In this document: piece after piece, positions 5,096 through 22,938 of the stretch | Position numbering within the stretch: position 1 is the stretch's first letter | Layout of the letters: each line of letters starts with the position of its first letter | Virus record (IMG/VR): IMGVR_UViG_3300013006_001829 | Span: 1 to 27,833 of that record | Strand: one strand, 5' to 3' | Length of the DNA: 27,833 bases | Source of the DNA: a virus | Made by a program: the position numbers and the translations under genes | The notes under the pieces: model-generated | The model's input: only the letters and a program-made list of their open reading frames with translations | Databases searched by the model: none | Told to the model about the DNA's origin: nothing

Positions 5096-5399
5096 ATCAG
5101 CAGCAAATAGAGTCAAAGAACAACTGTTGCATAGAGGAAAAGGCCTAGGCATCAAGCTAGGTGTTAGAACCACAGGCTGCTCAGGTATGAGTTATACATT
5201 AGAATTTATAGATCGTATCGATGAAACACTGGCCATATACGAATCCAATGGTGTCTATGTCTATGTGGATCCAAAACACAGTATATATCTAAAAGGGGTA
5301 GAAATGGATTGGGTTACAAAAGGCCTTAATTCAGGATTTGAGTTTTCCAATCCCAATGAGAAGAGCCGTTGCGGATGTGGCGAGAGTTTCAGCATATGA
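5079..5399 (+). CDS. iscA: Iron-sulphur carrier IscA
   Basis: 106 aa from ATG 5079; this start is chosen because MLTLTESAANRVKEQL matches the family N-terminus, whereas the open frame begins at 5040 inside iscU. Ligand cysteines are C34 (RTTGCSGMSYTLEF) and C98/C100 (SRCGCGESFSI). The HRGKGLGIKLGVR and KGLNSGFEFSNPN blocks are IscA-like, distinguishing it from the ErpA-type gene at 3931-4254. The 17-nt overlap with iscU and an ATGA overlap with the next gene imply translational coupling. Together the scaffold and two carriers form a partial Isc pathway on a phage genome. Confidence 0.96.
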   Translation: MLTLTESAANRVKEQLLHRGKGLGIKLGVRTTGCSGMSYTLEFIDRIDETLAIYESNGVYVYVDPKHSIYLKGVEMDWVTKGLNSGFEFSNPNEKSRCGCGESFSI

Positions 5400-6991: not shown

Positions 6992-8467
6992 TTATGAGTA
7001 AACTTTTACCTTGTACAGATTTTCAAAACGATCTGCATCGTTCCTATCATTAACCATAGGCTCTCCACGTATGTTGAGACTGGTATTTAACAACATAGGG
7101 CAGCCAGTCTTAGAATACCATTGTTCGAGTAGTTGTCTGATACCTGACCCGTCTTTAGGCACAGTCTGTACTCGACTGGTTCCGTCAGCATGTACAATGG
7201 CAGGAAACAGATCAGCACGTTTACAACCAGCAACTACCTGCATATACCTGCTGGTGGTCCAGTTTAAAGGCATACTAAAGTATTCATCGGCTAGTTCTTC
7301 TAAAATAACAGGTGCAAAGGGTCGAAACTTCTGACGACGTTTAATTTCATTGACCTTGTCCTTTATTTCATTGCCTCGGGGATCTGCCAGTAGGCTTCGA
7401 TTACCTAGTGCTCTTGGGCCAAACTCTGCTCGTCCATTAGCAACTCCTACAATTTTATTAGCTAGCAATTCGTTAATTAATTGATCAACAGGATATGGTC
7501 CAGCAATGTCATGCCCAAGATAAGCTGTGGTCCAATTTAATTTTTTTCCATAACCTAAAGCTGCGGCACCCAAACTGCTGCCAGCATCTCCCGGATTGGG
7601 CATTATCCAAATGTTACTGTAGTAGTGGCCTAACAGTCTATTGGCACTACAGTTAAGAGCCACTCCCCCGCCGTAGACTAAATTGTCACTGGAGCCCAGT
7701 TGTCGTGCTTTTTTAATCACTGTAGTGATCAATTCCTCAACCAAAATCTGACTGCTGGTAGCAATGTCATAATGATTAGCTGACTGTTCAAAAAAAGGAT
7801 CTATACCTTTGTGTAGGTTGTACTTAAAAGTTAAACGATCTAGATCATCAATTAGGTAATCTCGCAAATTGATACTATTAGATCCATAGGCTGCCATGCC
7901 CATTAATATATATTCTTCATCGAGTGGTCGTAGTCCTACTCGATTAGTCATTGCACTGTAAAATAATCCAATACTGTTAGGATATCGCTGGGACCATAGT
8001 TTTTTGTAAGTGGCTCTGTTGTTTTTATATTCAGCATGCCAAATGGTCATGGTGTCAAATTCCCCAATTGCATCTATAACAACAACTGTTGCAACGTTAA
8101 ATGGACTGGTCTGAAACCCGGCAGCCGCATGACTTAGGTGATGATTATGTGTGTGTATCTTTTTATTGCCCAACAAGTCTACATTTTGTTGTTTGATTAT
8201 GTGTTTGATCTTGACATTGCTAATGTCGGGTTTTTGTCCTGCAATCAATTGTCTTAGATACTTTAATAAAGGTCTTTCGTAGTAATGCAGTTCATAATCA
8301 GAAGATACATAGCCAACAGCATCATCAATAATTGATTTGCAGAGATCTTGGTCATGTTTGTTTTTGCTGTATCTTTCACTATGACCAGCAAACAGAATAT
8401 TTCCCTGTTTGTTGATAACAGTCAATGCAGCATCGTGAAATCCACAACTTAATCCAATATAATCCAT
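6992..8467 (-). CDS. NodU/CmcH-family carbamoyltransferase
   Basis: 491 aa, somewhat shorter than the usual 550-600 aa. The N-terminal YrdC-like/ASKHA part has GLSCGFHDAALTVI and the metal-binding HNHHLSHAAAGF, then YGGGVALNCSANRL and NPGDAGSSLGAA. The C-terminal domain has GRAEFGPRALGNRSLLADPR and RRQKFRPFAPVILEE. Family members move a carbamoyl group from carbamoyl phosphate, via carbamoyl-AMP, to a sugar or other hydroxyl (NodU acts on Nod factor, CmcH and TobZ on antibiotics). It is the last gene of the leftward operon, 2 nt after the fibre-tip-like gene. The context suggests carbamoylation of a sugar made or attached by the operon. Confidence 0.93.
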   Translation of the reverse strand: MDYIGLSCGFHDAALTVINKQGNILFAGHSERYSKNKHDQDLCKSIIDDAVGYVSSDYELHYYERPLLKYLRQLIAGQKPDISNVKIKHIIKQQNVDLLGNKKIHTHNHHLSHAAAGFQTSPFNVATVVVIDAIGEFDTMTIWHAEYKNNRATYKKLWSQRYPNSIGLFYSAMTNRVGLRPLDEEYILMGMAAYGSNSINLRDYLIDDLDRLTFKYNLHKGIDPFFEQSANHYDIATSSQILVEELITTVIKKARQLGSSDNLVYGGGVALNCSANRLLGHYYSNIWIMPNPGDAGSSLGAAALGYGKKLNWTTAYLGHDIAGPYPVDQLINELLANKIVGVANGRAEFGPRALGNRSLLADPRGNEIKDKVNEIKRRQKFRPFAPVILEELADEYFSMPLNWTTSRYMQVVAGCKRADLFPAIVHADGTSRVQTVPKDGSGIRQLLEQWYSKTGCPMLLNTSLNIRGEPMVNDRNDADRFENLYKVKVYS

Positions 8468-8469
8468 AA

Positions 8470-9204
8470 TTATTCCCAGTCAGTTAAAGGACATCTTTTC
8501 CAAATTTTAGTCACTCCGTCAAAATTTTTAACACAATAGTAAATAAAATTTTTATCTAATGAGATATCACCTTCTATATCACCTTTCATTCCTATAGAAG
8601 ATTCAATCGTCGTGCTTTGTATGTTAGTGACTCCACTTAAATAGACTCTACTATCCTCAAAAGCTATTAATTTTATTATTTTATTTGTAGTACTAGTAGA
8701 AGAAACAATGACCAATCTTTCCTTATTAGATGCCTTATTAATTTCTAAAGACAATCTGTAAGGGTGTGTTCCTGGTTCTTGTTTAGAATTAAAACCAATC
8801 CATTTTTTAGCTGATATTTTTTCTGATTCAATATAATTGGAAATTATTGCACATTCAGAATTAATAATTTTATTTTTAATGTATTTGGAATTTAGATTTT
8901 CAGTTTCGATCGAAACTGATTCAATCGATTCTGCAGAATCAATAATTTTTGCCGAAACAATTTCAGATTGTATCTTTGAAATTTTTAAGGTAGAAGTCGC
9001 ATGATCCCAGATACATTGATCTCCCGAACCAATCAAAAATGGAGAACCATCACTGTTATAGACGGCCAGAGCTCCTGTTATACTACCTTCAATAGTTGAA
9101 GAATTATTAATGAAAATTTTATCTTCAATCTCGCTGATAACGATATTTGCTATTCCTATTAATTCTTTTCCATCTTTTAAAATAATTTTATCAGTCACAA
9201 ACAT
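8470..9204 (-). CDS. Fibre-tip or structural-like protein
   Basis: 244 aa. The C-terminus (GMKGDIEGDISLDKNFIYYC, then DGVTKIWKRCPLTDW) matches a recurrent closing motif of phage tail-fibre proteins (GxxGDxxGDI...YxYYC...DGxxxIWKR). The middle is a low-complexity Ile/Ser/Glu ladder (AKIIDSAESIESVSIETENL) with the look of a beta-helix or needle-like trimer. It overlaps the upstream gene by 14 nt. It is probably a virion adhesin or an attachment protein decorated by the neighbouring enzymes; this is inference from motif and position. Confidence 0.65.
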   Translation of the reverse strand: MFVTDKIILKDGKELIGIANIVISEIEDKIFINNSSTIEGSITGALAVYNSDGSPFLIGSGDQCIWDHATSTLKISKIQSEIVSAKIIDSAESIESVSIETENLNSKYIKNKIINSECAIISNYIESEKISAKKWIGFNSKQEPGTHPYRLSLEINKASNKERLVIVSSTSTTNKIIKLIAFEDSRVYLSGVTNIQSTTIESSIGMKGDIEGDISLDKNFIYYCVKNFDGVTKIWKRCPLTDWE

Positions 9205-10129
9205 TTTCCCTATTTGAAATTTTTTCAGTAATATCTTTATGAATTAGATTTGCTATTTTATTTCTAGAATTTAGATCGATATGGAATTGACTATATCCCC
9301 ATTTATGACTTGCATCTACAAAAACAGGTTCATTTAATTGGATTATATTTAAATTACTTTTGTAATGATGCTGAAATTTATTCATAATAACTGTAGATAA
9401 TCTTTCAGCATACTTATGATCCGTTGGGTCTGTCATTATTTTTGTTTGCCTGTAGTACATTAAATGCTCAGGTCCAACTTTTATACTTTTTACTTTGTGG
9501 TTGGATTCAATTACAAAATTAGAAAAATGAGTTTTTACTAAAATAACTCTATCTTGAAAAATTTCATGAATACTCCTAGCAAAATCTACCATTAGATCAA
9601 ATGACCATTCCAAAGATTCTTTTGTATCAAACGGTAATAAAAAATCTTCCTTGGCAAAATATTCTTTGTACAACCAGTGCAGACAATTATTGGGATTTTC
9701 CACAATCCTCATAGCAGGTAAGCAACTAAAACATTCGTTTGCTATCAAGCATTTTGTGTATACTTCAGGACTAAACCCAACTAACAAATAGTCCTGCGGT
9801 CCTGCATTTTTTTTGTAAAAATTCAAATATGGAAATTTTACAATTTCATTATATACCTGACTACTAATCAATGTATCGTGTTTTCCTGCTGTAGATAGTG
9901 TTTCTAAAACTCGTTGGGCGATAGGGCCAGGCTTGGTATATAAAGAAATAACGCTAGTTCCCATTTCTGGAAAACTACGTTTGTTAAAATTTAAATCGCC
10001 GTTATCTATTGTGTCCTTGTCTATAGCGTAGTCTATAACATCAAAATCTCTTTGTAAAAGGTCATTAGTTGCAATATCTTGTAAATCACATCCTCCGTAC
10101 AAAAAAAGTTTTGATTTTTTTGTCCTCAT
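9191..10129 (-). CDS. DUF6270/SGNH-like protein
   Basis: 312 aa. It begins with a beta-strand and a GGCD turn (KLFLYGGCDLQDI) that resembles the GSC.xRD opening of DUF6270 proteins, and ends WGYSQFHIDLNSRNKIANLI, where the His would be the block V residue of an SGNH hydrolase. The nucleophile serine expected in GxS is a Cys here (GGCD), so catalysis is uncertain. The match is by memory of the family, not a search. It sits with five other SGNH domains in the operon and overlaps the next gene by 14 nt. AGGAG lies 12 nt before the ATG. Confidence 0.6.
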   Translation of the reverse strand: MRTKKSKLFLYGGCDLQDIATNDLLQRDFDVIDYAIDKDTIDNGDLNFNKRSFPEMGTSVISLYTKPGPIAQRVLETLSTAGKHDTLISSQVYNEIVKFPYLNFYKKNAGPQDYLLVGFSPEVYTKCLIANECFSCLPAMRIVENPNNCLHWLYKEYFAKEDFLLPFDTKESLEWSFDLMVDFARSIHEIFQDRVILVKTHFSNFVIESNHKVKSIKVGPEHLMYYRQTKIMTDPTDHKYAERLSTVIMNKFQHHYKSNLNIIQLNEPVFVDASHKWGYSQFHIDLNSRNKIANLIHKDITEKISNRENVCD

Positions 10130-10156
10130 TTTATATAAAACTCCTATATAACTAAT

Positions 10157-10164
10157 TATAAATA
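10157..10164 (+). promoter_or_regulatory. T4-type late promoter (TATAAATA), small ORF
   Basis: Exact TATAAATA in the 57-bp gap between two divergent genes, 22 nt upstream of the ATG at 10187. It is the main reason to believe the 61-codon frame that follows. Confidence 0.6.
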
Positions 10165-10186
10165 TTGATATCGTAGAAAAAAATAT

Positions 10187-10372
10187 ATGAAATCAGTTAT
10201 TGATCAAGATGAGATTCATAAACTACTACTGTTATTAGCGGAAGGACTAGTTTATTGTGAAAAATATCTAGGAAGAAGTTTTTTAACTGATTCAATAAGA
10301 GCCTGGTATTTTAAAAATGCTCCAGAATATTTTCCATCTGATCCATCATCCTCGTCATTTGGTTCCAATTAA
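10187..10372 (+). CDS. Small unknown protein on the opposite strand
   Basis: 61 aa. The only rightward gene in the 7-22.9 kb leftward operon. Its own TATAAATA late promoter lies 22 nt upstream. Residues 5-35 look like an amphipathic helix (IDQDEIHKLLLLLAEGLVYC), and the tail is Ser/Pro-rich (PSDPSSSSFGSN). It overlaps the 3' end of the convergent methyltransferase gene by 18 nt. There is no clear Shine-Dalgarno. No family is recognised. Confidence 0.55.
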   Translation: MKSVIDQDEIHKLLLLLAEGLVYCEKYLGRSFLTDSIRAWYFKNAPEYFPSDPSSSSFGSN

Positions 10373-10894
10373 CATAAATCTAGTAAATCCCCAAGACGGA
10401 TAAATGAATTCTTTTTGGCCAGAGTAAAAAATCTCACTAAGCGGAAATAAAGATATGAAATCGTTCAAGTTTTTAGTATTTGTATGATGATCTTCATGAG
10501 GCATGTTATTTCCCTGTAAAGCGACCATTGTTCCTTTAGGAATATTCGTCCACCATGTAAGATCTTCAAAATGTTCAGTGCTGGTATTAATTATCAGATC
10601 GACGTTTGTCGGAATAATGCTATTACAGTCTGCGGTAACTGCTTTGAATTGCCAGTCCTGCCATTTCCAATTTTCATTAATTACATCAGCCTTCGGTTCG
10701 CAGGCAGGATCAATATCTATGCTGCGTATTTTGTTTATCTGAATATTGTTTCTAGCTCGCAATAAGAATGCAGCGATTCCGTACCAGCCTCCGTAAATCC
10801 ATATAGTATCTATTTTATCAAATAGATTTTCTAATTCTTCGCAGAGCCAAATCTTGCTGCCTATTTGACCGCTACTGAACGCATCTCGATTCAT
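10355..10894 (-). CDS. Class I SAM-dependent methyltransferase-like protein
   Basis: 179 aa. A Rossmann-like pattern is visible: IDTIWIYGGWYGIAAFLL corresponds to motif I (Gly-rich, after a beta-strand), RSIDIDPACEPKADVIN to the acidic end of strand 2 that binds the SAM ribose, AVTADCN to motif III, and VDLIINTSTEHFEDL to motif IV. The opening NRDAFSSGQIGSKIWLCEEL is shared with methyltransferase-like proteins common in T4-like marine phages (recalled). The substrate is unknown; context suggests a sugar. The 3' end overlaps the small plus-strand gene. Confidence 0.8.
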   Translation of the reverse strand: MNRDAFSSGQIGSKIWLCEELENLFDKIDTIWIYGGWYGIAAFLLRARNNIQINKIRSIDIDPACEPKADVINENWKWQDWQFKAVTADCNSIIPTNVDLIINTSTEHFEDLTWWTNIPKGTMVALQGNNMPHEDHHTNTKNLNDFISLFPLSEIFYSGQKEFIYPSWGFTRFMLIGTK

Positions 10895-10899
10895 GTTAA

Positions 10900-11337
10900 T
10901 TAGGGATAGATAAAAGGATCTCTTTTACGAAATTCAGCTAGTTTTTTTTGCCAAAGCACATCCTCAGGAACTTGGCCAAGCAAATAAGTTTCTATTCTTG
11001 TAATTTTTTCGTTATCATTTAATGATAACACATGAAGAATTTTTTGAGAATCAAATGTAGAACCGTTAAAAAAGTTCTCAATTTCAAGAAATATCTTATA
11101 TTGATCTACTGCAACTGAGATAACATTTCGTTCTATTGAATTAAAAGGGCTTAATTGTTCTTGATAAAAACTTTTCAACGTATCTTTTCCTACTATAATA
11201 CGATTTTCCCAATCATAATACTCTATATTAGAATCGTAATATTGATCAAAAAAAGAAAAAAATGCGTCTTTATTTGTTTTTTGATAACCTGCTGTAATAA
11301 ATGATATGCATACATTTTCAATTTCTTCGTTAGTCAT
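10900..11337 (-). CDS. NTF2/SnoaL-like small protein
   Basis: 145 aa. The layout is that of an NTF2-like cone: an N-terminal helix (EEIENVCISFITAGYQKTN), the FFSFFDQYYDSNIEYYDWENRIIVGKDTLKSFY segment, then beta-strands (VISVAVDQYKIFLEIENFF, KILHVLSLNDNEKITRIETY). NTF2-like folds serve as isomerases, cyclases or binding proteins; no catalytic residue can be fixed here. The last residues KKLAEFRKRDPFIYP resemble the end of the 41-aa protein at 12019-12144. A good AAAGGA site precedes the ATG. Confidence 0.75.
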   Translation of the reverse strand: MTNEEIENVCISFITAGYQKTNKDAFFSFFDQYYDSNIEYYDWENRIIVGKDTLKSFYQEQLSPFNSIERNVISVAVDQYKIFLEIENFFNGSTFDSQKILHVLSLNDNEKITRIETYLLGQVPEDVLWQKKLAEFRKRDPFIYP

Positions 11338-11348
11338 TTTTTTTTCCT

Positions 11349-12014
11349 TTAGGTTTTAGGTACAAAAATGCCACCTGGCATTTGATAAACATAGATGTTG
11401 TTGAGAACAAAATAATGTGCTAAATGTGTGTGAAAATTATCACCTCTGCCTGCCATTATTTCTGTATGACTTTTTATTTTCATATATGGAACAGGTAATA
11501 ATGTATCAATTAATTTTTTAGGTGTAGACATAAAAAATATATCATTTACTGTCACAACAAACGGCAGTGGCGGACCTGTTACATTTATCGGACTTGCTCC
11601 ATAAATCTTGGAAAGATCAATTGAGTTGATACGCCTATTGAAACTATCTATATCTGGAATTTCTATGTCTGGTCTTGTAATTATAGCACAGTCGTATTCA
11701 TGTTGTAAATTAATCAATTTGATCAATATCTTTTGCCAATGATAGATTTGCTTATTCCCTCTGTGTTCAAAATCAATCTCTTGCTCTAAATTTAAATATT
11801 TCGGTGTTTTGCCTACGGTTGATAGTATATACGATTCAGTGATTGATTTTTTTGGATCAATATCGTCTATGCCGTTTCTATCTCCATTTAAAGTGGACGA
11901 ATTCCAGGTACTCATGAATATGTCATAATCAAATTGATCTAAAAATTTCCACGTAGGGAATTTTTGAGAGAAGGTTCGATATTCACCACCAACAAGTAAA
12001 GCCAATTTTTTCAT
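11349..12014 (-). CDS. Glycosyltransferase-like protein, paralogue 1
   Basis: 221 aa. It opens LALLVGGEYRTF and continues DIFMSTWNSS, then has YDCAIITRPDIEIPDID and a YQMPGGIFVP end. The same skeleton (GxxR, xSTW or HVW, and an RxDl/RPDi acidic site after a YD(x)vi strand) appears in the 588-aa and 264-aa proteins of this operon. I take it as a divergent phage glycosyltransferase-like family with the RPD acid in the role of a DxD; that assignment is inference from pattern. It lies 4 nt after the 41-aa gene. Confidence 0.65.
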   Translation of the reverse strand: MKKLALLVGGEYRTFSQKFPTWKFLDQFDYDIFMSTWNSSTLNGDRNGIDDIDPKKSITESYILSTVGKTPKYLNLEQEIDFEHRGNKQIYHWQKILIKLINLQHEYDCAIITRPDIEIPDIDSFNRRINSIDLSKIYGASPINVTGPPLPFVVTVNDIFFMSTPKKLIDTLLPVPYMKIKSHTEIMAGRGDNFHTHLAHYFVLNNIYVYQMPGGIFVPKT

Positions 12015-12018
12015 TGTA

Positions 12019-12144
12019 TCATTTGTATATGTAAGGCTCTTTGGTTTTAATCTGTTTCAATCGTTTACGATATCTTATCTGTCTAGTAAGTTTGCCAAAC
12101 AACCGTTCTACGATGTAAAATCTAATCTTCTCCAATATAGACAT
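12019..12144 (-). CDS. 41-aa basic protein (small gene)
   Basis: Not obvious by length: ATG at 12142-12144, TGA at 12019-12021, 41 aa, starting MSILEKIRFYIVERLFGK and ending KRLKQIKTKEPYIYK. The ATG directly follows the TAA of the upstream gene (12145-12147), and the stop is 4 nt from the next ATG (12014), so it fills a 130-nt gap exactly. It is strongly basic and probably one amphipathic helix. Its tail resembles KKLAEFRKRDPFIYP at the end of the NTF2-like protein nearby. Function unknown. Confidence 0.8.
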   Translation of the reverse strand: MSILEKIRFYIVERLFGKLTRQIRYRKRLKQIKTKEPYIYK

Positions 12145-12954
12145 TTATACGAATCCGTTTAATTTAATATGCTCAATTAATCGATCAGCCGTATCTTGGT
12201 GGCCGCCATCACCGGTATGCATACTATTAACCGTGTCTGGCCACAGACGTGTGCAACGACCCCAATCTTGATTGCAATAATCCCTAGGTTCATCAACTAA
12301 ATTACTATAATCAGTATCTGATGAAAATATAATGCAGTTTATTCCCTGTTTCTTGATCATCTTATAAGCCATTAATATAACACCTCGATCATATTCTCGT
12401 TTAATGCTAGAATCAAATATATCAAAATAATAGCGTTCCATCAACTCTACTTTTTCTACAGATTCTGTATGTAGTCGTTTGTAGTAATCATTTTTATTAT
12501 TGGCTTTGGCTAACTTTAAATATTCAGAAAACGCTATTACTTGCTCACTTAATACCTTAGGAGAGTAATTTGGGTTATCCTTAAAATAGAAATCCATTGG
12601 AGCATCATGCAAAGGCGGAGTGTGATAGTGCGGAGGATATAAATGATAATTGATATCTAATGCAGTTAAAGGTATATTTGGATCTTGATCTTTGCCTGTA
12701 GCAATCCATTCCACTCTATCAAATGATGTTGTACCTAAAATCACTAGGTGAGGTTTAGGAGTCATCTTGGCCGCATAAGCACCTTGAAGGTATATTGTGA
12801 AATTACTAGCACTCCCTCTCGCTAATCTAACTAGATCCCAATCAAAATGTTGAGAAGTTAACACACCATACGGCTTTGTATGCAGATTGGTACAGCCAAT
12901 ACCATAGTTAAAACTATCGCCACATACTATCATTAGTTTCTTGTCTGTAGTCAT
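12145..12954 (-). CDS. SGNH/GDSL-type hydrolase, paralogue A
   Basis: 269 aa from ATG 12954. An in-frame ATG five codons upstream (12969) overlaps the preceding gene, but homology with the next paralogue begins at TDKKLMIVCGDSF, and TAA-A-ATG spacing fits the shorter start. SGNH blocks are block I VCGDSFNYGIG with the nucleophile Ser, block II RLARGSASNFT (Gly, Asn), block III VILGTTSFDRVEW, and block V TGDGGHQDTADRL with Asp/His. Such enzymes remove or transfer acyl groups on sugars. It is a tandem duplicate of the upstream gene, much more similar within blocks than in the middle. Confidence 0.88.
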   Translation of the reverse strand: MTTDKKLMIVCGDSFNYGIGCTNLHTKPYGVLTSQHFDWDLVRLARGSASNFTIYLQGAYAAKMTPKPHLVILGTTSFDRVEWIATGKDQDPNIPLTALDINYHLYPPHYHTPPLHDAPMDFYFKDNPNYSPKVLSEQVIAFSEYLKLAKANNKNDYYKRLHTESVEKVELMERYYFDIFDSSIKREYDRGVILMAYKMIKKQGINCIIFSSDTDYSNLVDEPRDYCNQDWGRCTRLWPDTVNSMHTGDGGHQDTADRLIEHIKLNGFV

Positions 12955-12955
12955 T

Positions 12956-13759
12956 TTAAATAAATCCATTTATTTTAATGTGTTCTATTAATCGATCTGC
13001 TGTGTCTTGATGCCCGTCATCCCCTGTATGAAATGACCCAATTGTGTCTGGCCACAACTGGCAGCATCTATGCCAATCTTGCCTACAATAATCTCTAGGA
13101 TCGTCAACTAAATCTTTAAACATTACATCTACTGAAAATATAATACAATTTATTCCTTGTTTTTTAAGCATACTATATGCCCTTAGTATGACACCACGGT
13201 CGTAATCTTGTTTGATCCGTGGATCAAAAATATCAAAATAGTAGTCTTCTATAAGCTGTATTTTTTCTGATCCTTCAGTAAGCATCCTTGTATAATGATT
13301 AGGTTGTTTTGATTTTTCTATTTTTAAAAAATCAGTTAGAGCCAAAACTTGTTCACTCAACATCCTAGGGTTGTATTTTGGATTATCTTTAAAATAAAAA
13401 TCCATTGGAGAATCATGATGAGGTTGTGCCCAATTATGCGGAGGATATTGATGATAGTTAATATCTAAGGCAGTTAATGGTATGTTTGAATTTACTGTTT
13501 TACCAGTAGTAATCCATTCTACTCTATCAAAGGATGTTGTACCTAAAATTACTAGATGAGGTTTAGGAGTCATCTTGGCTGCATAAGCTCCCTGCAGGTG
13601 AACAGTAAAATTGCTAGCACTTCCCCTTGCTAATCTAACTAGGTCCCAATCAAAATGATGAGAGGTCAGCACACCATATGGTTTTGTATGCAGATTAGTA
13701 CAGCCGATACCATAATTAAAGCTGTCCCCGCATACTACCATTAATTTTTTATCTGCCAT
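12956..13759 (-). CDS. SGNH/GDSL-type hydrolase, paralogue B
   Basis: 267 aa, start MADKKLMVVCGDSF, overlapping the upstream 588-aa gene by 11 nt. Blocks are CGDSFNYGIG, GSASNFT, GTTSFDRVEW and HTGDDGHQDTADRLIEHI, identical in order and spacing to paralogue A; most of the first 130 residues are the same in both. No signal peptide is seen, so it should act in the cytoplasm, for instance on a glycan or nucleotide-sugar intermediate or as an acyltransferase. Confidence 0.88.
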   Translation of the reverse strand: MADKKLMVVCGDSFNYGIGCTNLHTKPYGVLTSHHFDWDLVRLARGSASNFTVHLQGAYAAKMTPKPHLVILGTTSFDRVEWITTGKTVNSNIPLTALDINYHQYPPHNWAQPHHDSPMDFYFKDNPKYNPRMLSEQVLALTDFLKIEKSKQPNHYTRMLTEGSEKIQLIEDYYFDIFDPRIKQDYDRGVILRAYSMLKKQGINCIIFSVDVMFKDLVDDPRDYCRQDWHRCCQLWPDTIGSFHTGDDGHQDTADRLIEHIKINGFI

Positions 13760-15515: not shown

Positions 15516-16216
15516 AAGTCTGAATTACCTAATAAATCAAAAATTGCTATATATTTTAATAAACGATCAGCCCAGGCAGCATGTCCTTCTTCTAAAGGGT
15601 GCATAAGGGGACCTATTTTGTAATTATTTTCTTTGACAAATTGGGCAAAACTTGGAACTACATAATATCGATTTTTTATTATTTGTGCCAATAATTCAGG
15701 TTTTATCACACCCGTTTCCATTTTCATTGACGTAGTTATTAAATATGGAATTTTTTTAGTTCTTAAAAAATTCTGCATTTTTAACACTATCATTACATTA
15801 AGGGTATGATCCCCGCGATCATTCTGATGACCAATAGGATAATTTTCAACACCTGGTGCAGTAGAAGCTAGATAAGCATAGTAAGATCCAAGATCAGAGG
15901 AACAAAATTCTCTACGAGCAAGGTGAGTCAACCCTATATTAACAAAAATCTCTTCAGGTTTAAAGATTACCAACGCTTTAGACAAATTATTAATCAGCAT
16001 CCTATAGGAACGTTCATTCGACCCCTCAGGCAATCCGGAATTTTGATAGTAGTTTATTCCTAACTGATCAGCCATAATCCCTGTATAACAGTGTTTCCTT
16101 TTATAAGGAGTAAACGAAAAAAGAGTTCCTTCGACAGTATCAAATTCAGGGCCGTCTGGATGTAATTCATGCCCCCATACGAATGAATCACCGACCGTAT
16201 AAAAAAATTTTATCAT
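15512..16216 (-). CDS. SGNH hydrolase, paralogue C
   Basis: 234 aa. FFYTVGDSFVWGHEL (block I, Ser), then YKRKHCYTGIMADQL, a GSNERSYRML block II, VNIGLTHLARREF near block III, and MHPLEEGHAAWADRLLKYI with the C-terminal His. It shares these blocks with paralogue D, which abuts it with an ATGA overlap, but differs from the A/B pair. One deletion relative to D removes about 12 residues in the middle. Cytoplasmic by lack of a signal. Confidence 0.87.
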   Translation of the reverse strand: MIKFFYTVGDSFVWGHELHPDGPEFDTVEGTLFSFTPYKRKHCYTGIMADQLGINYYQNSGLPEGSNERSYRMLINNLSKALVIFKPEEIFVNIGLTHLARREFCSSDLGSYYAYLASTAPGVENYPIGHQNDRGDHTLNVMIVLKMQNFLRTKKIPYLITTSMKMETGVIKPELLAQIIKNRYYVVPSFAQFVKENNYKIGPLMHPLEEGHAAWADRLLKYIAIFDLLGNSDL

Positions 16217-16956
16217 AAATCAAAATTATTTAACAAATTGTTTTCATTTATATGAGTTAACAAATGTGCAGCCCAGGCAGCATGTCCTTCTTCTAAAGGG
16301 TGCATAAGGGGACCTATTTTGTAATTATTTTTTTTAGCAAAATCAAAAAAAGATGGTTGTACGTAGTAACGATTTTTAACTATTTGATTGGAAAGTTCGT
16401 GGGTTATAACTTGGAGTTTTCGATAAAATTCTATTGATAAGGAAGCAGTTATTAGATAGGGAATTTTATTCGTTCTTAAAAAATTCTGCATTCCTAACAC
16501 CATCATCATATCAAATGTAAAATGCCCGTAATCAAAACTAAAATGATTTACAAGAGTTTTCCACAAAGTATGGTGACCTGGCATCATATCATTGGGTTCA
16601 AACGAATTTAAATGAATATAGTAATCCCCTATCTCATTGAAACAAAATTCTCTACGAGCAACGTGAGTCAAACCTATATTAACAAAAATCTCTTCAGGTT
16701 TGTAAATTGTCAATGCAGAAGACAAATCATTAATCAGCATCCTATAGGAACGTTCATTTGAACCGCCTGGACAACTACTATTAGCATAAGATTCGACTGA
16801 CAACTGGTCGGCTATAATTCCGGTGTAACAATGCTTTCTTTTATAGGGACTAAATTCAAATTTAGCCACAGATGAGTTGTCTGCTTCAGGACCGTCTGGA
16901 TGTAATTCATGTCCCCATACGAATGAATCACCTACTGCATAAAAAAATTTAGTCAT
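16213..16956 (-). CDS. SGNH hydrolase, paralogue D
   Basis: 247 aa. KFFYAVGDSFVWGHELHPDG, GGSNERSYRMLINDLS, VNIGLTHVARREF and LMHPLEEGHAAWAAHLL give the four SGNH blocks. The first and last quarters are almost identical to paralogue C, while the middle (residues about 115-180) has diverged, a pattern of duplication followed by change in the substrate-facing part. It overlaps the upstream glycosyltransferase-like gene by ATGA. Confidence 0.87.
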   Translation of the reverse strand: MTKFFYAVGDSFVWGHELHPDGPEADNSSVAKFEFSPYKRKHCYTGIIADQLSVESYANSSCPGGSNERSYRMLINDLSSALTIYKPEEIFVNIGLTHVARREFCFNEIGDYYIHLNSFEPNDMMPGHHTLWKTLVNHFSFDYGHFTFDMMMVLGMQNFLRTNKIPYLITASLSIEFYRKLQVITHELSNQIVKNRYYVQPSFFDFAKKNNYKIGPLMHPLEEGHAAWAAHLLTHINENNLLNNFDL

Positions 16957-17747
16957 AATTTATAAAAAGTATTGGAATAATCAGATATCTGTCGATATCC
17001 GTCTGCTGTTAAAGGATCTATATTAGAGACTTCGGGCCTGAAAACTGTTGTTAAAATATGATTATTGAGTATTCTAAAATTGCTTTCTTCAGCAAAGTCT
17101 GACATGTTTCCGCCTGGACCTATAAGATCATAGTCATCTTGTCTGACCTCGTGCTTTTGTATTTTTCTATATAGATCTGAAAGTAAATCCATCGCTGTTG
17201 AAGAGCCGTACAGAAATGTATCGGAAGCATTTACTCTGTTGAATTCAACTGACATTCTGCCCGAGTGCAAACAAACGATATCAAGATATCGATGTTGATT
17301 GATTAGATGATGTCTTGCTGTTTGGGTAAAATCTTGTGTTAGATCAAATATTAAATCATATCTACTTTTAACAACTAAATCGTATCTGAAATTATTTTCA
17401 ATTTCATATTGTTTCTTCAAGTGATTGGCCATCATCATTGAATAAGTTAAAGACGCCCACGAGAATCCAGCACCGATGGCCTGCGCAGAATCAATAATAT
17501 ATTTTTTTGGATTAAACAGATTAACCTTGTCATTCAACCAACCGACATCAACAGGAGTATCTCCTTCCCAATATACAGGTTGTTCTCCAGGGACAGGAAA
17601 TAATGTTCTTCTCTTATAGGTATTATAATCCCAAACATGACAAAAGTAGTCACATTGGTATTCTCCTGAAAAATAATGCAAAATATTAGGAGCGGCAACA
17701 TCTATGGTTCTAGGCTGACCACTTAGACACACTGCTATTTTCATCAT
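16953..17747 (-). CDS. Glycosyltransferase-like protein, paralogue 2
   Basis: 264 aa, MMKIAVCLSGQPRTIDVAAP, followed by YFCHVWDYNTYKRR, then SLTYSMMMANHLKKQ, and YDLVVKSRYDLIFD, where R-x-D occupies the position of RPD in the other family members. The N-terminal CLSGQPRT/HxW pattern is widespread in phage and bacterial proteins annotated as glycosyltransferase-like (recalled). GAGGTAAT precedes the ATG pair. The second Met is an equally good start. Confidence 0.68.
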   Translation of the reverse strand: MMKIAVCLSGQPRTIDVAAPNILHYFSGEYQCDYFCHVWDYNTYKRRTLFPVPGEQPVYWEGDTPVDVGWLNDKVNLFNPKKYIIDSAQAIGAGFSWASLTYSMMMANHLKKQYEIENNFRYDLVVKSRYDLIFDLTQDFTQTARHHLINQHRYLDIVCLHSGRMSVEFNRVNASDTFLYGSSTAMDLLSDLYRKIQKHEVRQDDYDLIGPGGNMSDFAEESNFRILNNHILTTVFRPEVSNIDPLTADGYRQISDYSNTFYKL

Positions 17748-18301
17748 ATTACCTCAAACAATTTAAGATCACCAAAATGAGTACACTCTGTTTTTATTTT
17801 TAAACTTTTTAAAAAATAATAAAACCCCTTGTCGTCAAGGGTTCCTTTTTTTCTTACTGGTGACAGATACTTGTACTCGATTCCAAAATTACAGGCACAA
17901 TCAAATGTAAGTGAGTTTGAAAAAAATATCTGAGGTGAAACTTCAGTAACTCCGCGACCTCCAGTATATCGCCCTCTGACATAATATAATTTGTTAGAGG
18001 TATAAAGATCTAATTTTGGCAACAAATTTGAATGTTGAGAAAACAGAGACAGTGTATCATCAGATAGATCTATTGCCACACAGGTATCAAAATCTTTTTT
18101 AATCTCTAATTCATGTTGTCTTTTTTTAAAACAGCTTTTCCAAAGATTTATATACAAATCGTTTTCATCTATGTGTTCAAAAAACTCAATATTATAATCA
18201 CTCATTTGGTTGCAACAGTGCTGTCGGAGAGCAGACAAATTAGTATTTGAGGTGCCGTACAAACAGACTGCTAAATTAAGGTTGGTAGATTCCGGTCTCA
18301 T
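17744..18301 (-). CDS. Unknown protein, possibly a degenerate glycosyltransferase-like paralogue
   Basis: 185 aa. The N-terminal LNLAVCLYGTSNTNLSALRQ resembles the IAVCLSGQPRT opening of the next gene, and DTCVAIDLSDDTLSLFS may be a remnant of the acid-containing strand, but the HxW and RPD motifs are not clear. A Gly/Arg stretch (YYVRGRYTGGRGVTEVSPQIFFSNSLTFD) is similar in layout to acceptor-side regions of such proteins. It overlaps the radical SAM gene by 26 nt; AAGGA lies 9 nt before the ATG. Function not assigned. Confidence 0.6.
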   Translation of the reverse strand: MRPESTNLNLAVCLYGTSNTNLSALRQHCCNQMSDYNIEFFEHIDENDLYINLWKSCFKKRQHELEIKKDFDTCVAIDLSDDTLSLFSQHSNLLPKLDLYTSNKLYYVRGRYTGGRGVTEVSPQIFFSNSLTFDCACNFGIEYKYLSPVRKKGTLDDKGFYYFLKSLKIKTECTHFGDLKLFEVI

Positions 18302-19709
18302 AGTGTCTTATTCCTTCTTTGTGCAAGGGCATGATATCAAAAACTTTAGGTACCTCGATGGCACTGTACCAAGGAGCAATCTCTGGGAAAGTTTCTAAAA
18401 TGTTTTTGCCTCTTCGCTGATCGTATTGTGTGAAAAAACTCTTGAAGTCAACCAGCAACAGTTTCTTGTCATCAGGCATGTAGACATGGCCTTTGTCTAA
18501 CACTTCAATGTAGTCCAGCAGTCTTTGGATCTGTGCCATTTCCCCGTCAAGAAACAGGCGAGAGTCTTTGTTCTTGTCGTACCACACTTTTAATTTGGCA
18601 TGCAACTGCATCTTAACATCATCTGGTAGTGCAAGCGGACTCATGAAGCTGGGCCAACGCAGCATGTTCAATGACAGGTTAGGCCTGTGGTGACCATATC
18701 GACTTTTTAATTCAATGACATCATCTAAAAACTCTGTGATACTGAACAGGCATAGACTGTTGATGGTCATCATTATGGTCAAGGCTCGAAACTGAGCATT
18801 TTCTATAAAGGTTGACAGATTGTGTCGCCATTGCTGGTAGTTCAATCCATCTCTAATATATTCAGCATGTGCTCCGAAACTTTCATTACTGGTATAGAGA
18901 TCAAACTCTCTAATAGGTAATGTGTGAGTTATGCCGATCAATTTTTCCAAGGCTTTTTCACTGAGCCCTAGATTGGAATTAACGGCAAATCTTAAGTTCC
19001 TGCTGTCGCTCTGATGTAGGATATCCACAAACCTCCAAAAGTTCTGACTGACGGTGGCCTCACCTCCGGTGATTCTAATTTCATCTAGGGTCTTAGATAA
19101 TTTAGGCCACCAGGCAAAGAAAGCATCTACATAGGGATTATTTTCCATATGGCGACCATTCAGTTCGGTCCAACTGCCATCTGACTGATAGGCTCCGCCT
19201 CCACCGCCCGGGGATGAAAAGTTTTGATAGGCTCCGTGTTTTTCCAAATCCTGTGCCCAGGTAGAACTGTAGCCTGCATTGCAGTAGCTACAGGCAAAAT
19301 TGCATTGGCGGTCGAAACTGATTTCTAGTGTCTTTAGATCAATGTCAGCATCCCAGGGCAGGTCTTTGAGTCGCCTGATGTCTTCTTCTTGATAGATTTC
19401 ACTTTTGTAGATTCTGTCACTGGGATTGTTACGACCTATTCCTTCGATCTTCCAACAATAGCTGCACTCTGCAGGCTTATCTCCATTCAACATCATCTTA
19501 CGCATCTGCTTTTTGTGATCGGTGTTGTGTATGGCACTGGGGTTAGTCAAGATCTGTTGGGGATCAATGGGATGCGGCAAGGGCAAATGACAGCTCATGG
19601 TGTGTCCACTGCCTAGATGTATGCTGGCGTTCAACCACTTGGCCGCACAGAAACTGGGACTGATGGAGTTCAGGTGTTGATCACGCCACTTTATTAGATG
19701 TTCACTCAT
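18276..19709 (-). CDS. Radical SAM enzyme (twitch-type), paralogue 2
   Basis: 477 aa. The radical SAM cluster motif CxxxCxxC is C136-NFA-C140-SY-C143, followed by the GGE-like RITGGEATVS (SAM amino-group binding) and a partial TIM barrel. An N-terminal module of about 115 residues carries C21, C40-H41, and C82/C85 (AECSYCW), a likely extra Fe-S or zinc site. It parallels the next upstream gene along its length. Such phage proteins are annotated as twitch-domain radical SAM proteins (recalled); the substrate is unknown. A Gly run (SSPGGGGGAYQSDG) sits after the cluster. TAAtATG spacing couples it to the upstream gene. Confidence 0.9.
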   Translation of the reverse strand: MSEHLIKWRDQHLNSISPSFCAAKWLNASIHLGSGHTMSCHLPLPHPIDPQQILTNPSAIHNTDHKKQMRKMMLNGDKPAECSYCWKIEGIGRNNPSDRIYKSEIYQEEDIRRLKDLPWDADIDLKTLEISFDRQCNFACSYCNAGYSSTWAQDLEKHGAYQNFSSPGGGGGAYQSDGSWTELNGRHMENNPYVDAFFAWWPKLSKTLDEIRITGGEATVSQNFWRFVDILHQSDSRNLRFAVNSNLGLSEKALEKLIGITHTLPIREFDLYTSNESFGAHAEYIRDGLNYQQWRHNLSTFIENAQFRALTIMMTINSLCLFSITEFLDDVIELKSRYGHHRPNLSLNMLRWPSFMSPLALPDDVKMQLHAKLKVWYDKNKDSRLFLDGEMAQIQRLLDYIEVLDKGHVYMPDDKKLLLVDFKSFFTQYDQRRGKNILETFPEIAPWYSAIEVPKVFDIMPLHKEGIRHYETGIYQP

Positions 19710-19710
19710 A

Positions 19711-21165
19711 TTAGAAAGGCCCCTGTGTTTGCCATCTCACGGTATACATTTTACACTCTTGATAAAAGTCAGCCAACTGTGGAAAGGTCTCTTTAAAGTC
19801 AGTACCTCGTCGTAGATCGTATTCGGTGATATATTCAGCAAACTGTGCTCTCAAGGGCCCAATTCGTCCAAATTTAGCATGTGTACGCATCATTTCATCC
19901 GTTACAGTATAATATAGCCGTTCGATCCTATTTATTTCAAAGTCAAAGAAGCCTTTGCCACATAAGGGAGGCCAATTCAGCTGATGCAGATTTCTATAGG
20001 CATGTGTGACCACCTGCTCTAACATGGGCAGATATTTGGTGTCGGCCACCCAGGCGGCCAAAAACTCTGGCCAACGTATGTAGGGCACATCCAGAGTCAC
20101 TGGGTTTTTGCGTATGGGCTGTTGAGTATACTGTCGTTTCATGTCCAGGATGTCATCCATCAGCAAATGAAAACTGGGCAGACTCATAATGTTGTAGGCC
20201 GCCATGACCGAGAGATGACTGTGTGGTATTTCGGCCAAGACCCTGTGGCAGTTGGCCAGCCAGCGATCATAATTCAGCCCAAATCTAATGTATTCGGCTT
20301 GGGCTCCATGTGCTTCGTTACTGGTATAGACCTTGAAGATTTTAACGGCTCCTTTGTCCTGTATGATCTGCATTTTTTTGATAAATTTGTTGATCAACTG
20401 TGGGGGCACGTCTAGGTTGCTGTTGATGTTGAATTCCATCTGAGGCTGTGGATGATCTATCAGGTAGTCTAATACTCGAAACAACTGTTTGCTCATCAAG
20501 GGTTCCCCACCTGTGATTCTAAAGACCTTGAGCTCTTTGACCACATCAGGCCACCAGGACCAAAAGGCTTCCACATAGGGATTAGGTTTGGTTATGGGCA
20601 AGGGCAATATGTCCTGTTGTTTGAGATAGTCTAGACTATGCAAGGGCAGATCCTGCAGTTGATAGGGGCCATGCTGTTCTATTTCCTGTCTCCAGGTGCT
20701 GCTGACCGCAGGACTACAGTAGGCACATTTAAAGTTGCAGGCCGTGTCAAAACTGACTTCCAGATAGCTAGGCACCGCATCTGTGTCCCAGGGGCTTTTA
20801 ACAATGTGATCTAGATAGGGTGCGGCCCAGGGCTCGGCACTTTTGGTTATGCGATCGCTGAACACCGGACCGCTGTTTGAGCCACGATCGGCGTCTTCGG
20901 CACGCCAGCAGTAGTCACACTCTTCAGGCCTTGAGCCCTCTAGCATCTGCCTTCGCTGCTGTTTTTTGTAGTTGCTGTTGTGCAGAGCACTGACATTGAT
21001 TTTGATCTCGTCCACTGAGATCTTGTGAGGACTGGGGTGATGACAACTGTGTGTCTGTCCGGTGCCCAACAACAGACTGACCTGTTGCCATTTGGCCACA
21101 CACATGCTGGGACTGACCTTGTCTAGTCGCTGTTGTGTTTCTGTAAAAATTTGATTATGATCCAT
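19711..21165 (-). CDS. Radical SAM enzyme (twitch-type), paralogue 1
   Basis: 484 aa. Cluster motif C143-NFK-C147-AY-C150 after LEVSFDTA, then RITGGEPLMSKQ and INSNLDVPP. The N-terminal module has C22, C41-H42-H43 and C83/C86 (EECDYCW), in the same order and spacing as in paralogue 2, so the auxiliary site is conserved. Shared blocks run to the C-terminal YDLRRGTDFKETFP. AGGAT lies 6 nt before the ATG. Two non-identical radical SAM enzymes in tandem suggest two steps of one pathway or a heteromeric pair. The enzymes need Fe-S clusters, which links them to the phage ErpA/IscU/IscA set. Confidence 0.92.
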   Translation of the reverse strand: MDHNQIFTETQQRLDKVSPSMCVAKWQQVSLLLGTGQTHSCHHPSPHKISVDEIKINVSALHNSNYKKQQRRQMLEGSRPEECDYCWRAEDADRGSNSGPVFSDRITKSAEPWAAPYLDHIVKSPWDTDAVPSYLEVSFDTACNFKCAYCSPAVSSTWRQEIEQHGPYQLQDLPLHSLDYLKQQDILPLPITKPNPYVEAFWSWWPDVVKELKVFRITGGEPLMSKQLFRVLDYLIDHPQPQMEFNINSNLDVPPQLINKFIKKMQIIQDKGAVKIFKVYTSNEAHGAQAEYIRFGLNYDRWLANCHRVLAEIPHSHLSVMAAYNIMSLPSFHLLMDDILDMKRQYTQQPIRKNPVTLDVPYIRWPEFLAAWVADTKYLPMLEQVVTHAYRNLHQLNWPPLCGKGFFDFEINRIERLYYTVTDEMMRTHAKFGRIGPLRAQFAEYITEYDLRRGTDFKETFPQLADFYQECKMYTVRWQTQGPF

Positions 21166-21201
21166 GCATATCCTAGTTGATTAAGTTGTATTTTGTCTAG
21201 T

Positions 21202-22857
21202 CTAGGCCTGTTCGTAGTATTGACTACGCAGCCACTCTCGGTCGTTGATGTACAGCAGTTGATCAAGCGGGCCGTCCTGCTCATAGATGTCATTAACCCA
21301 CTGTTCAGCTTCTAGTGCGGCTCTAATGGCCTCGGATGAGTAGGGTCTGTTGTAATCTCTATCTTGCCAGGCTTTGAGCAGATCTCGGGTGCGCCAGTCG
21401 CTGGGATTGTTGTGCAGTCGAATGGTCAGCTTGACACACTCTCTAAAAGCACTGCGCCAGGTACTGAACTCATCCGTGTTGTAGCGTGTTTCGTTGCTGA
21501 CCACAGATATGACTCTGAGATCTTTGAACAGTTCGGTGGTCATGTCCAGCCCGGCCCACATCCAAGAGTCTTTGAGCAGTTGTGTAGGCAGCAGTTTGAC
21601 TCCACCATAGCCATACTCTAGATCATTTAGAGCATTGCGACTGTGCCATATGTGAGCGCAGTGTCGGTCCCAGATAGAGGGTTGATAGTCAAAACGCCAG
21701 GCATCTAGCAGCCAGGCATCGGCATCTACCACCCAAAACATGTCGGTGGTGGCCAGTTCAGCGGCTCGGCAGTGTGCGGCGTAGATACCCACCACACCGT
21801 CTATGCGTTGGGCATGTGGTGCTCGTTCTAGCACACGAGCCCAATGTAGATCGGCAGTGGGTTCTCCACAGCTGATAAAAAACACATCCAGCTGACCAAA
21901 TATGCTGGGTGTGATCATGCCCATGACCTTTTGCCCCGCCACCCGATCGACCACACGTACTCGTACGGCCCAAATGTCAGGGTTCTGGTCATTGGTGCAG
22001 CGTGAATCCAACATCCATACGTGTTCGTACTCTAGGTCGTACCAGGGTATTACATAGTCCAGATCATAGCAGAGTTCAGGCAGATCACTATTGTAGACAA
22101 CGTCGTGCTGGGGAGTAATGGTGCCATACCACTGCCAGTCTTTGGGCTTGCGATAAGCGGGTGAGAACCTGACCAACCACAGGGGTTCGGCCAGATCCTC
22201 AGTGTGTGCTGGATCCAGTGCCCAGGCACAGTCACAGTCCATGTCCCAGTAGGCCGGAAAGCATTGATCCAAATCTACGGTAATGGCAGGAGCGTCCGGG
22301 TTCAGTTCAATGTCAAGGTGAGGTGTAACCTCACCCATGTCCTTGACTCCTTGTACTGTGCGACCCATAGGTTGACAGCTAAAGGCCCATATGCGATCCT
22401 CACCACCGGGTACCACACGCCAGTCTAAATACCAAACCAGTTGATATTGATAGTCCCAGGCCGGAGGTTGATAATGGCCATAGATCTGAGGTCCCTCATA
22501 GGTAATGGATCGATCTAGATCAGGATTGCGTCGCCAAATCAGCTGAGGTCTGGTAACGGTGACCTGATAGTAACCCGCATCAGGTCGCCACCCGGGAGGA
22601 AACAGTTTGGCTATCCACTGACCCTGGCTGTTGGACCAAACCACACAGTGATCGCCACCGGTATCAGGCACATGTTCAATTAGGTGATGTAGCTGCAGGT
22701 CCGATTGATCTCGCCAAGGATTCAAGATCAGCTGATTAGTGCCGGTGACCAGTTGAGCCAGCTGTTGATCATAGAGCTCGGGTTGACCGGTCCACTCTAT
22801 GGCTTCAACCAGTAGAGGGTCTATGAGGTTGACTATGGATAAGAATTGTCCGGACAT
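21202..22857 (-). CDS. Trp-rich repeat protein fused to a glycosyltransferase-like domain
   Basis: 551 aa. Residues about 94-320 hold about three copies of a 70-80-residue repeat with the pattern G-x-ITPxxDxxxNxDxPxxxxDLDxxxPxxD...WxLD...WxVR (copies start near 94, 173 and 244; the first is weakest). Residues about 322-470 look like a GT-A glycosyltransferase core: DVFFISCGEPTADLHWARVL, AAELATTDMFWVVDADAW with the DxD-like VDAD at 377-380, then a YGYGGVKLLP acceptor-side loop. The C-terminus is helical. It is the first gene of the leftward operon, 62 nt after a TATAAATA. The repeat function is unknown. Confidence 0.75.
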   Translation of the reverse strand: MSGQFLSIVNLIDPLLVEAIEWTGQPELYDQQLAQLVTGTNQLILNPWRDQSDLQLHHLIEHVPDTGGDHCVVWSNSQGQWIAKLFPPGWRPDAGYYQVTVTRPQLIWRRNPDLDRSITYEGPQIYGHYQPPAWDYQYQLVWYLDWRVVPGGEDRIWAFSCQPMGRTVQGVKDMGEVTPHLDIELNPDAPAITVDLDQCFPAYWDMDCDCAWALDPAHTEDLAEPLWLVRFSPAYRKPKDWQWYGTITPQHDVVYNSDLPELCYDLDYVIPWYDLEYEHVWMLDSRCTNDQNPDIWAVRVRVVDRVAGQKVMGMITPSIFGQLDVFFISCGEPTADLHWARVLERAPHAQRIDGVVGIYAAHCRAAELATTDMFWVVDADAWLLDAWRFDYQPSIWDRHCAHIWHSRNALNDLEYGYGGVKLLPTQLLKDSWMWAGLDMTTELFKDLRVISVVSNETRYNTDEFSTWRSAFRECVKLTIRLHNNPSDWRTRDLLKAWQDRDYNRPYSSEAIRAALEAEQWVNDIYEQDGPLDQLLYINDREWLRSQYYEQA

Positions 22858-22912: not shown

Positions 22913-22918
22913 TAATGA

Positions 22919-22926
22919 TATTTATA
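22919..22926 (-). promoter_or_regulatory. T4-type late promoter of the leftward operon
   Basis: TATTTATA on the plus strand, that is TATAAATA leftward, 61 nt upstream of the 551-aa gene. No other convincing promoter is seen until the end of the operon near 6992, about 16 kb downstream. Confidence 0.75.
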
Positions 22927-22938
22927 GGAATAAAGCTG

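Follow-up and report, generated by a model that had tools for sequence, protein, structure and literature searches.

What does an aquatic phage build with two radical S-adenosylmethionine (SAM) enzymes, a carbamoyltransferase, several glycosyltransferase-like proteins and a series of SGNH domains encoded in a single string of genes? The question is raised by IMG/VR virus record IMGVR_UViG_3300013006_001829, of which positions 1 to 27,833 were analysed (the window throughout, a 27.8-kb fragment of an uncultured virus record). The string comprises sixteen co-oriented minus-strand open reading frames (ORFs) running from 22857 down to 6992, as an earlier note on this DNA had described, and a seventeenth that encodes a 41-residue microprotein. 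That note proposed an undescribed glycan-decoration system. Our analysis indicates that the string is a real and recurrent feature: an island, in the host-recognition region of an aquatic phage genome, of enzymes that build and decorate sugars. A glycan-building or glycan-decorating role is well supported by family content, folds, lectin-domain fusions in relatives and the neighbourhoods of cellular homologues, whereas “undescribed” is too strong for the general concept, given the relevant passages of PMC7029224 and PMC2853527.

Relatives and published islands

Isolate phages returned neither a megablast match to the window nor a tblastn match for its 588-amino-acid (aa) fusion protein or its 551-aa protein. 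A scan of viral contigs with the second radical SAM enzyme (B) recovered 71 loci. Nearly the whole gene order is kept in L002 and in L003/L004, at 36-89% protein identity, and part of it in L005, L033 and L075; the order of at least ten genes is common to the window and L003. Comparison of gene order with other T4-like genomes was one of the checks suggested in the earlier note, and the retention of order in relatives indicates that the arrangement is not due to chance. Gene content differs strongly among the loci (neighbourhood table, about 70 loci). In a 107-kb contig (G023), the island is flanked on one side by baseplate wedge, hub/lysozyme and tail-fibre genes, and on the other by an ATPase gene, a thymidylate-synthase-family gene and virion structural genes.

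Two published systems show that this kind of island is already known. The passages seen of Zaragoza-Solas et al. 2020 (PMC7029224) describe a pelagimyophage host recognition cluster (HRC) with glycosyltransferase islands, radical SAM cassettes and a tail-fibre region, in which cassettes are exchanged gradually. The likeness extends to the setting, the structural region of a T4-like aquatic phage, and to the hypervariable content, in which tail fibres and glycosyltransferases occur with swappable radical SAM genes. Virion structural genes including tail fibres lie alongside our island too (in G023, and in the window as an endolysin gene and the tail-fibre gene at 1-1695), and its content is hypervariable and includes glycosyltransferases, as judged from the neighbourhood table and from glycosyltransferase folds. 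Neither of the genes that bound the HRC, VrlC and gp14, was identified in the window, which is only a 27.8-kb fragment. The published cluster differs in that the main text of PMC7029224 does not mention a carbamoyltransferase, and the passages seen contain no paired radical SAM enzymes, SGNH repertoire or microprotein.

The second precedent is the swappable radical SAM/amidinotransferase module of the Campylobacter phages CP220 and CPt10, as presented in passages of Timms et al. 2010 (PMC2853527; FN667788). There, a block directly downstream of the baseplate genes of CP220 comprises about five radical SAM genes, two nucleotide-sugar-transferase-like genes and an amidinotransferase gene; an amidinotransferase-like gene (cluster 23, so named from its sequence) is likewise part of the islands of our environmental relatives. 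The Campylobacter phages differ in giving no match to radical SAM B (tblastn, 1e-5), and CP220 has no annotated carbamoyltransferase in the 40 kb examined. Radical SAM islands have been noted in phages since 2010 without a function. New here are the fixed order of the two radical SAM genes, the lectin-like fusions of the first of them (A), the cellular loci beside exporters, and a microprotein family, named DPFIY after its C-terminal motif, beside the carbamoyltransferase. The radical SAM pair, the lectin-domain fusions and the cellular neighbours tie phage radical SAM islands to carbohydrate chemistry.

Sugar enzymes and the radical SAM pair

Structure models were made for the 588-aa protein (mean predicted local distance difference test score, pLDDT, 74.6) and the 551-aa protein (pLDDT 84.8). 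In the 588-aa model, the N-terminal part matches the GT-A glycosyltransferase structures 4ayl and 1fo8 (Z 11.2) and the C-terminal part matches the SGNH proteins CgnD (Z 14.6) and TesA (Z 13.5). Residues 320-460 of the 551-aa model match a GT-A fold (Z about 10), and D378 and D380 are nearly invariant when this protein is aligned with homologous glycosyltransferase-like proteins of about 300 aa. Both the 221-aa protein and the 264-aa protein align with the glycosyltransferase domain of the fusion, at hhalign probabilities of 100% and 95.4%. Four GT-A-like glycosyltransferases are therefore supported among the glycosyltransferase-like proteins of the earlier note, including its repeat-bearing type: the 11349 protein, the N-terminus of the 13749 protein, the 16953 protein and the C-terminus of the 21202 protein (genes are denoted by their lower coordinate). 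The 185-aa protein (17744) was tried as a further member and rejected (hhalign probability 0.2, not significant).

All five SGNH domains that had been called carry a GDSF or GCSF motif; two of the five also match DUF6071 and one is supported by fold, the SGNH fold having been seen for the 588-aa protein alone. A C-terminal DxxH is found in three of the five, and the two DUF6071 proteins show another pattern. The methyltransferase (10355) and NTF2-like (10900) calls held up less well, with no match above a curated cut-off, and searches of Pfam, PHROGs and phage records matched nothing to the fibre-tip-like protein (8470); these identities, and that of the DUF6270-like protein, are weak.

Both radical SAM proteins proposed earlier score well above the curated cut-off of 170 bits for the N-terminal twitch family NF033640 (N_Twi_rSAM; Table 1) and keep CxxxCxxC intact. 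The family alignment shows invariant cysteines at 21, 40, 82, 85, 136, 140 and 143 (protein B numbering), namely four N-terminal cysteines and those of CxxxCxxC, and reductive SAM cleavage by A and B is predicted from the family. A precedes B on the same strand in all 62 loci that show both, either adjacent or with one gene between; these counts are not independent events, since the loci were retrieved by B and some contigs are near-duplicates. Where a gene intervenes, it encodes a small protein of cluster 6 or 32 in 36 of 38 cases. Proteins of these clusters, or related proteins, give weak or clear matches to Laminin_G_3 (concanavalin-A-like). Radical SAM A is fused to a cluster 6-type domain in many relatives' loci, and the GT7 galactosyltransferase of relatives carries a concanavalin-A-like domain related to the cluster 6 type (hhalign 97%). 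The radical SAM proteins of the window itself are without a lectin-like domain. That radical SAM A and GT7 have such a domain in common is the strongest of the indirect indications that the radical SAM substrate bears carbohydrate.

A defence role as a prokaryotic viperin (pVip) was considered and rejected: the two proteins reach 14.1 and 18.4 bits against an NCBIfam cut-off of 180, and PADLOC pVip models give partial matches of 20-22 bits. Several copies of radical SAM genes per contig are seen in some viral contigs: one of 116205 nt (G021, with loci L360 and L361) has thirteen twitch-type radical SAM matches within ~20 kb, at about 38183-58419.

A genome scan for cellular relatives found 26 loci, mostly in metagenome-assembled genomes (MAGs) of the Bdellovibrio group; two of the 26 are on phage-like contigs (L093 and L103). 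The bins of these two contigs are labelled as Neomarinimicrobiota and Pelagibacterales MAGs, but their tail-fibre or glycan islands are of phage type and the contigs probably belong to phages. Genes for an ATP-binding cassette (ABC) ATPase and multi-span membrane proteins, a polysaccharide exporter of Wzm/Wzt type, recur in L088, L094, L096, L098 and L102, and four of these five exporter-bearing loci also have a carbamoyltransferase. In L096 the exporter was identified by Pfam, with GT4 enzymes and a SPASM radical SAM enzyme nearby, and these GT4 enzymes recur by similarity in other Bdellovibrio-group loci. The Bdellovibrio/Bacteriovorax MAG loci (L094, L096, L098, L102) thus resemble the phage islands in combining a twitch radical SAM enzyme with a carbamoyltransferase, and differ in having an ABC exporter, absent from the phage islands, and in that no DPFIY microprotein was found at cellular loci.

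The carbamoyltransferase and the DPFIY microprotein

The carbamoyltransferase call is borne out by the presence of both Carbam_trans_N and Carbam_trans_C and by alignment with NovN, GdmN and TobZ over most of the length; by family, it would transfer a carbamoyl group to a sugar hydroxyl. Compared with the O-carbamoyltransferases TobZ, NodU and NovN, the phage lineage differs in being coupled to the DPFIY microprotein. The window's member (MSILEKIRFYIVERLFGKLTRQIRYRKRLKQIKTKEPYIYK) was absent from the first gene list. Its start codon directly abuts the stop codon of the preceding gene (TAAATG), and the ORF differs between the window and L003 at 14 nucleotides that fall in synonymous codons and at 6 that fall in changed ones. 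Because the gap at 12015-12144 holds this conserved 41-aa ORF, the operon has seventeen genes.

A family scan gave at least 599 matching stretches, from which 80 loci were kept. The motif is C-terminal in 98 of 98 ORFs of one ORF collection. Among 131 distinct tagged proteins, collected with a pattern that already requires a terminal tag, 127 are short, with a median length of 33 aa; here the Pro, Ile and Tyr of the motif are invariant while being encoded by four, three and two synonymous codons. Three of the four longer ones are NTF2-like proteins (from the window, L002 and L003/L004), the window's ending in RKRDPFIY; the fourth (L278) probably belongs to the short members but was read from an early start codon. 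The microproteins are strongly basic (median net charge +9) and mildly amphipathic.

Starting from the tag, a carbamoyltransferase gene lies downstream in 75 of 80 loci, and starting from the carbamoyltransferase, a tagged ORF lies upstream in 78 of 80 (64 with a stop-start spacing of -3 to +25 nt), the two sets sharing contigs and holding the closest relatives only. In the marine single-cell virus record MH319727.1 the two genes overlap by ATGA. The microprotein gene of the window and of L003/L004 has shifted away from the carbamoyltransferase gene, and the gene for the tagged NTF2-like protein stands between them. Among the distant carbamoyltransferases of the radical SAM set, 5 of 13 have a tag upstream within 4 kb and several others have a tagged ORF elsewhere in the locus; the carbamoyltransferase loci L009 and L014 have none. 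Nor is the microprotein found in IscU loci or in the carbamoyltransferase neighbourhoods of HTVC008M, P-SSM2, S-CAM8 and Mosig. A tblastn search with a 36-aa microprotein query gave no match, possibly owing to the low-complexity filter, the family has no Pfam match, and the string DPFIY was not found in the open-access literature searched. Many aquatic phages have, in the DPFIY microprotein, a conserved and apparently unannotated partner of a carbamoyltransferase. Rather speculatively, these microproteins and the NTF2-like protein could form an undescribed tag-directed complex, in which a peptide of ~33 residues recruits, anchors or is modified by the carbamoyltransferase, possibly with the radical SAM pair, as a two-component peptide-guided carbamoylation. 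A gene for another protein, of about 340 aa (cluster 71, L186-L265; no Pfam match), lies directly ahead of the microprotein gene in 39 loci and in its vicinity in 50 of 80.

The tag also bears on a peptide reading of the island. Many radical SAM enzymes with auxiliary-cluster domains act on peptides, and the carbamoyltransferase, SGNH and radical SAM enzymes could act on the microprotein itself as a short precursor ending in FIY, as in a system for ribosomally synthesized and post-translationally modified peptides (RiPPs). Crocagin biosynthesis, in the passages seen of PMC10070186, relies on a short precursor together with a carbamoyltransferase, an N-methyltransferase and the SGNH-fold protease CgnD. 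The last of these is the best fold match of the 588-aa protein's SGNH domain, although an SGNH fold match tells little of substrate. A RiPP-like system is nevertheless very improbable: the C-terminal tag is nearly constant in the 131 distinct proteins, where a core peptide would diversify, an NTF2-like protein shares this tag and glycan genes predominate. Neighbour annotation, in which no targeted search was made, showed no relative of CgnB, CgnC or CgnE.

A further question is whether the island serves one pathway at all. GC content drops from 0.44-0.52 for the first three genes to 0.28-0.37 for those that follow, and stands at 0.40 for the carbamoyltransferase gene, which marks the operon as a mosaic. 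Together with the variation in gene content between loci and the gradual cassette exchange reported in passages of PMC7029224, this could reflect independently swapped cassettes gathered at a hypervariable site. However, the invariant A-B order, the microprotein-carbamoyltransferase coupling and the order of at least ten genes kept with L003 indicate functional linkage, which makes a mere gathering of cassettes improbable.

Target, timing and layout of the gene string

All seventeen operon proteins look soluble, with no membrane-like segment in any, and they do not include the Wzm/Wzt exporter that marks an ABC-transporter-dependent polysaccharide locus. In related phage islands, none of 1080 ORFs has three or more membrane-like segments. 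The lack of multi-span ORFs and the soluble operon proteins favour a cytosolic substrate, and hence the virion over a surface polysaccharide, although an export system for island products could come from the host.

A mechanism is proposed, with somewhat less than even confidence in the whole, where a T4-like aquatic phage uses this host-recognition-region island to build and decorate a carbohydrate in the cytosol of the infected cell. Judging by their folds, the GT-A enzymes would transfer sugars and the SGNH domains would add or remove acyl groups. Radical SAM enzymes A and B may alter the sugar or a sugar-bearing substrate, as the lectin-domain fusions of relatives and the cellular context suggest, and the NodU-type carbamoyltransferase would add a carbamoyl group. 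The microprotein would be a small partner of the carbamoyltransferase, likeliest a docking or anchoring subunit whose C-terminal tag recruits the enzyme, and the NTF2-like protein, having the same tag, may join the complex. The likeliest targets would be the phage's own tail-fibre or baseplate proteins, which would be made at the same time in the same compartment. Mycobacteriophage virions with glycans on their own capsid and tail tube proteins provide a precedent (Freeman et al. 2023, cited in PMC12619734), albeit with other phages and enzymes; the passage of PMC12619734 makes no mention of radical SAM enzymes or a carbamoyltransferase. Should the virion be the target, phage adhesins would bear elaborate sugar decorations, a matter of relevance to host range and recognition.

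Several observations weigh against this reading. In the passages seen of PMC7029224, the authors interpret similar islands as O-chain modification and assign this role to pelagimyophage glycosyltransferases. An island that acts on the host's surface polysaccharide, whether O-chain or capsule, and so for instance keeps competing phages from adsorbing, would also agree with the polysaccharide exporters beside cellular radical SAM and carbamoyltransferase relatives, and the basic, mildly amphipathic microprotein could be a membrane anchor that holds the carbamoyltransferase at the inner membrane, hence on a lipid-linked or host-surface substrate. The tail-fibre gene at 1-1695 occupies the window's far end, and homologues of it do not consistently adjoin the island. 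In the window the microprotein and carbamoyltransferase genes are five genes apart, and there is no conserved T4-type late promoter, as no TATAAATA-type site stands ahead of the corresponding unit in L002, L003 or L006. Finally, the co-occurrence of carbamoyltransferase and radical SAM genes speaks for the reading, with NF033640 above its cut-off in 21 of 21 contigs chosen by carbamoyltransferase versus 6 of 15 chosen by IscU, and Carbam_trans_C in 16 of 17 contigs chosen by radical SAM versus 2 of 15 chosen by IscU, but the IscU contigs are not matched in length or lineage, and six of the seven longer than 80 kb have a radical SAM gene. Modification of the host surface still appears unlikely, if worth serious consideration: the operon has no exporter, flippase, polymerase, ligase or lipid-carrier enzyme, the 1080 related island ORFs include no multi-membrane-span protein, and the virion and lysis neighbours suggest late expression, when a change of surface would help little.

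Phage glycosyltransferases can also glycosylate DNA (cited in the passage of PMC12619734), and the thymidylate-synthase-family gene downstream of the island in G023 could fit enzymes that hypermodify DNA bases with decorated sugars against restriction. We assign this a very slight probability, as the operon lacks a base hydroxylase or hydroxymethyltransferase, and the tail-fibre location, the lectin-like fusions of radical SAM and GT7 proteins and the exporter-adjoining cellular relatives point elsewhere.

Late expression, which the virion reading shares with the earlier note, is made likely by the baseplate and tail-fibre neighbours in relatives and by the endolysin gene here. The single late promoter invoked in that note did not hold up. 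A candidate T4-type site (TATAAATA) lies at 22919-22926 (-), 62 nt upstream of the unit, but the window has four such sites versus 2.35 expected; one matching site, at a chance-level number and not conserved, was rejected as a promoter. In L002, L003 and L006, structural-looking genes stand before the first glycosyltransferase. A sigma-70 scan was uninformative (72 promoter-like sites versus 60.5 in shuffles).

The junctions (Table 1) are more varied than the ATGA or 1-nt spacings first described. Four are 4-nt ATGA overlaps (13749, 15512, 16213, 16953) and four are spacers of 1-11 nt, but four others overlap by 11-26 nt, 36 nt follow gene 21202, and there are two larger gaps, that of the microprotein and one at 10130-10354. 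In the latter, neither blastx nor short-peptide searches gave a homologue other than the methyltransferase end; an open stretch of 33 codons (EDDGSDGKYSGAFLKYQALIESVKKLLPRYFSQ) in it looks like a gene remnant, with no homologue in the loci examined.

Table 1. Genes of the island in transcriptional order, and the gene that follows
Feature	Coordinates	Strand	Evidence
551-aa protein, N-terminal repeats and C-terminal GT-A glycosyltransferase domain (VDAD motif), first gene of unit	21202..22857	-	Alignment, model, fold match
Radical SAM enzyme A, N-terminal twitch type	19711..21165	-	NF033640 291.8 bits; CNFKCAYC
Radical SAM enzyme B, N-terminal twitch type, downstream of A	18276..19709	-	NF033640 299.6 bits
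185-aa conserved protein, cluster 38, 7 loci	17744..18301	-	No Pfam, PHROG or NCBIfam match
264-aa glycosyltransferase-like protein	16953..17747	-	phrog_13607 2.8e-14; hhalign 95.4% to fusion glycosyltransferase domain
SGNH-type protein, DUF6071	16213..16956	-	PF19547 4.8e-15; GDSF
SGNH-type protein, DUF6071, tandem copy (62% identical)	15512..16216	-	PF19547 6.2e-9
588-aa fusion, GT-A glycosyltransferase (about 1-240) and SGNH domain (about 330-588)	13749..15515	-	Model, Foldseek, fold matches
SGNH-motif protein	12956..13759	-	GDSF and C-terminal DDGH
SGNH-motif protein, tandem copy (75% identical)	12145..12969	-	GDSF and DGGH
41-aa microprotein, DPFIY family	12019..12144	-	Conservation, family alignment; no Pfam match
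221-aa GT-A-like glycosyltransferase	11349..12014	-	hhalign 100% to N-terminal domain of 588-aa fusion
NTF2/SnoaL-like protein, C-terminal RKRDPFIY tag	10900..11337	-	SnoaL_2 E 0.031, below cut-off
Methyltransferase-like protein, cluster 19, 15 loci	10355..10894	-	Conservation; IDID motif only
312-aa protein, possible degenerate SGNH (DUF6270-like)	9191..10129	-	DUF6270 E 0.019, below cut-off
244-aa fibre-tip-like protein	8470..9204	-	Sequence only
NodU/TobZ-type carbamoyltransferase	6992..8467	-	PF16861 2.2e-49, PF02543 7.5e-35; phrog_1601 1.9e-95; PDB NovN, GdmN, TobZ relatives
Endolysin (SleB-type cell wall hydrolase), next gene downstream	6320..6898	-	PF07486 1.3e-25

The tail-fibre gene at 1-1695 (-) has collagen-like GPTG/GPQG repeats, runs off the window end and is a conceivable glycosylation target. 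Three Fe-S assembly genes lie near the operon at 3931-4323 (-), 4712-5095 (+) and 5040-5399 (+), two IscA/ErpA-like and one IscU-like by sequence and homology; a supply link between IscU/IscA and the adjoining radical SAM enzymes was considered and dropped, as IscU is too common in viral contigs to inform alone. The divergent gene upstream of the operon, at 22915-23718 (+), had looked heptosyltransferase- or sugar-transferase-like by eye, an assignment discarded after Pfam and PDB searches gave no match; a gene of the same cluster (50) occupies the same place in L002, L003, L004 and L006.

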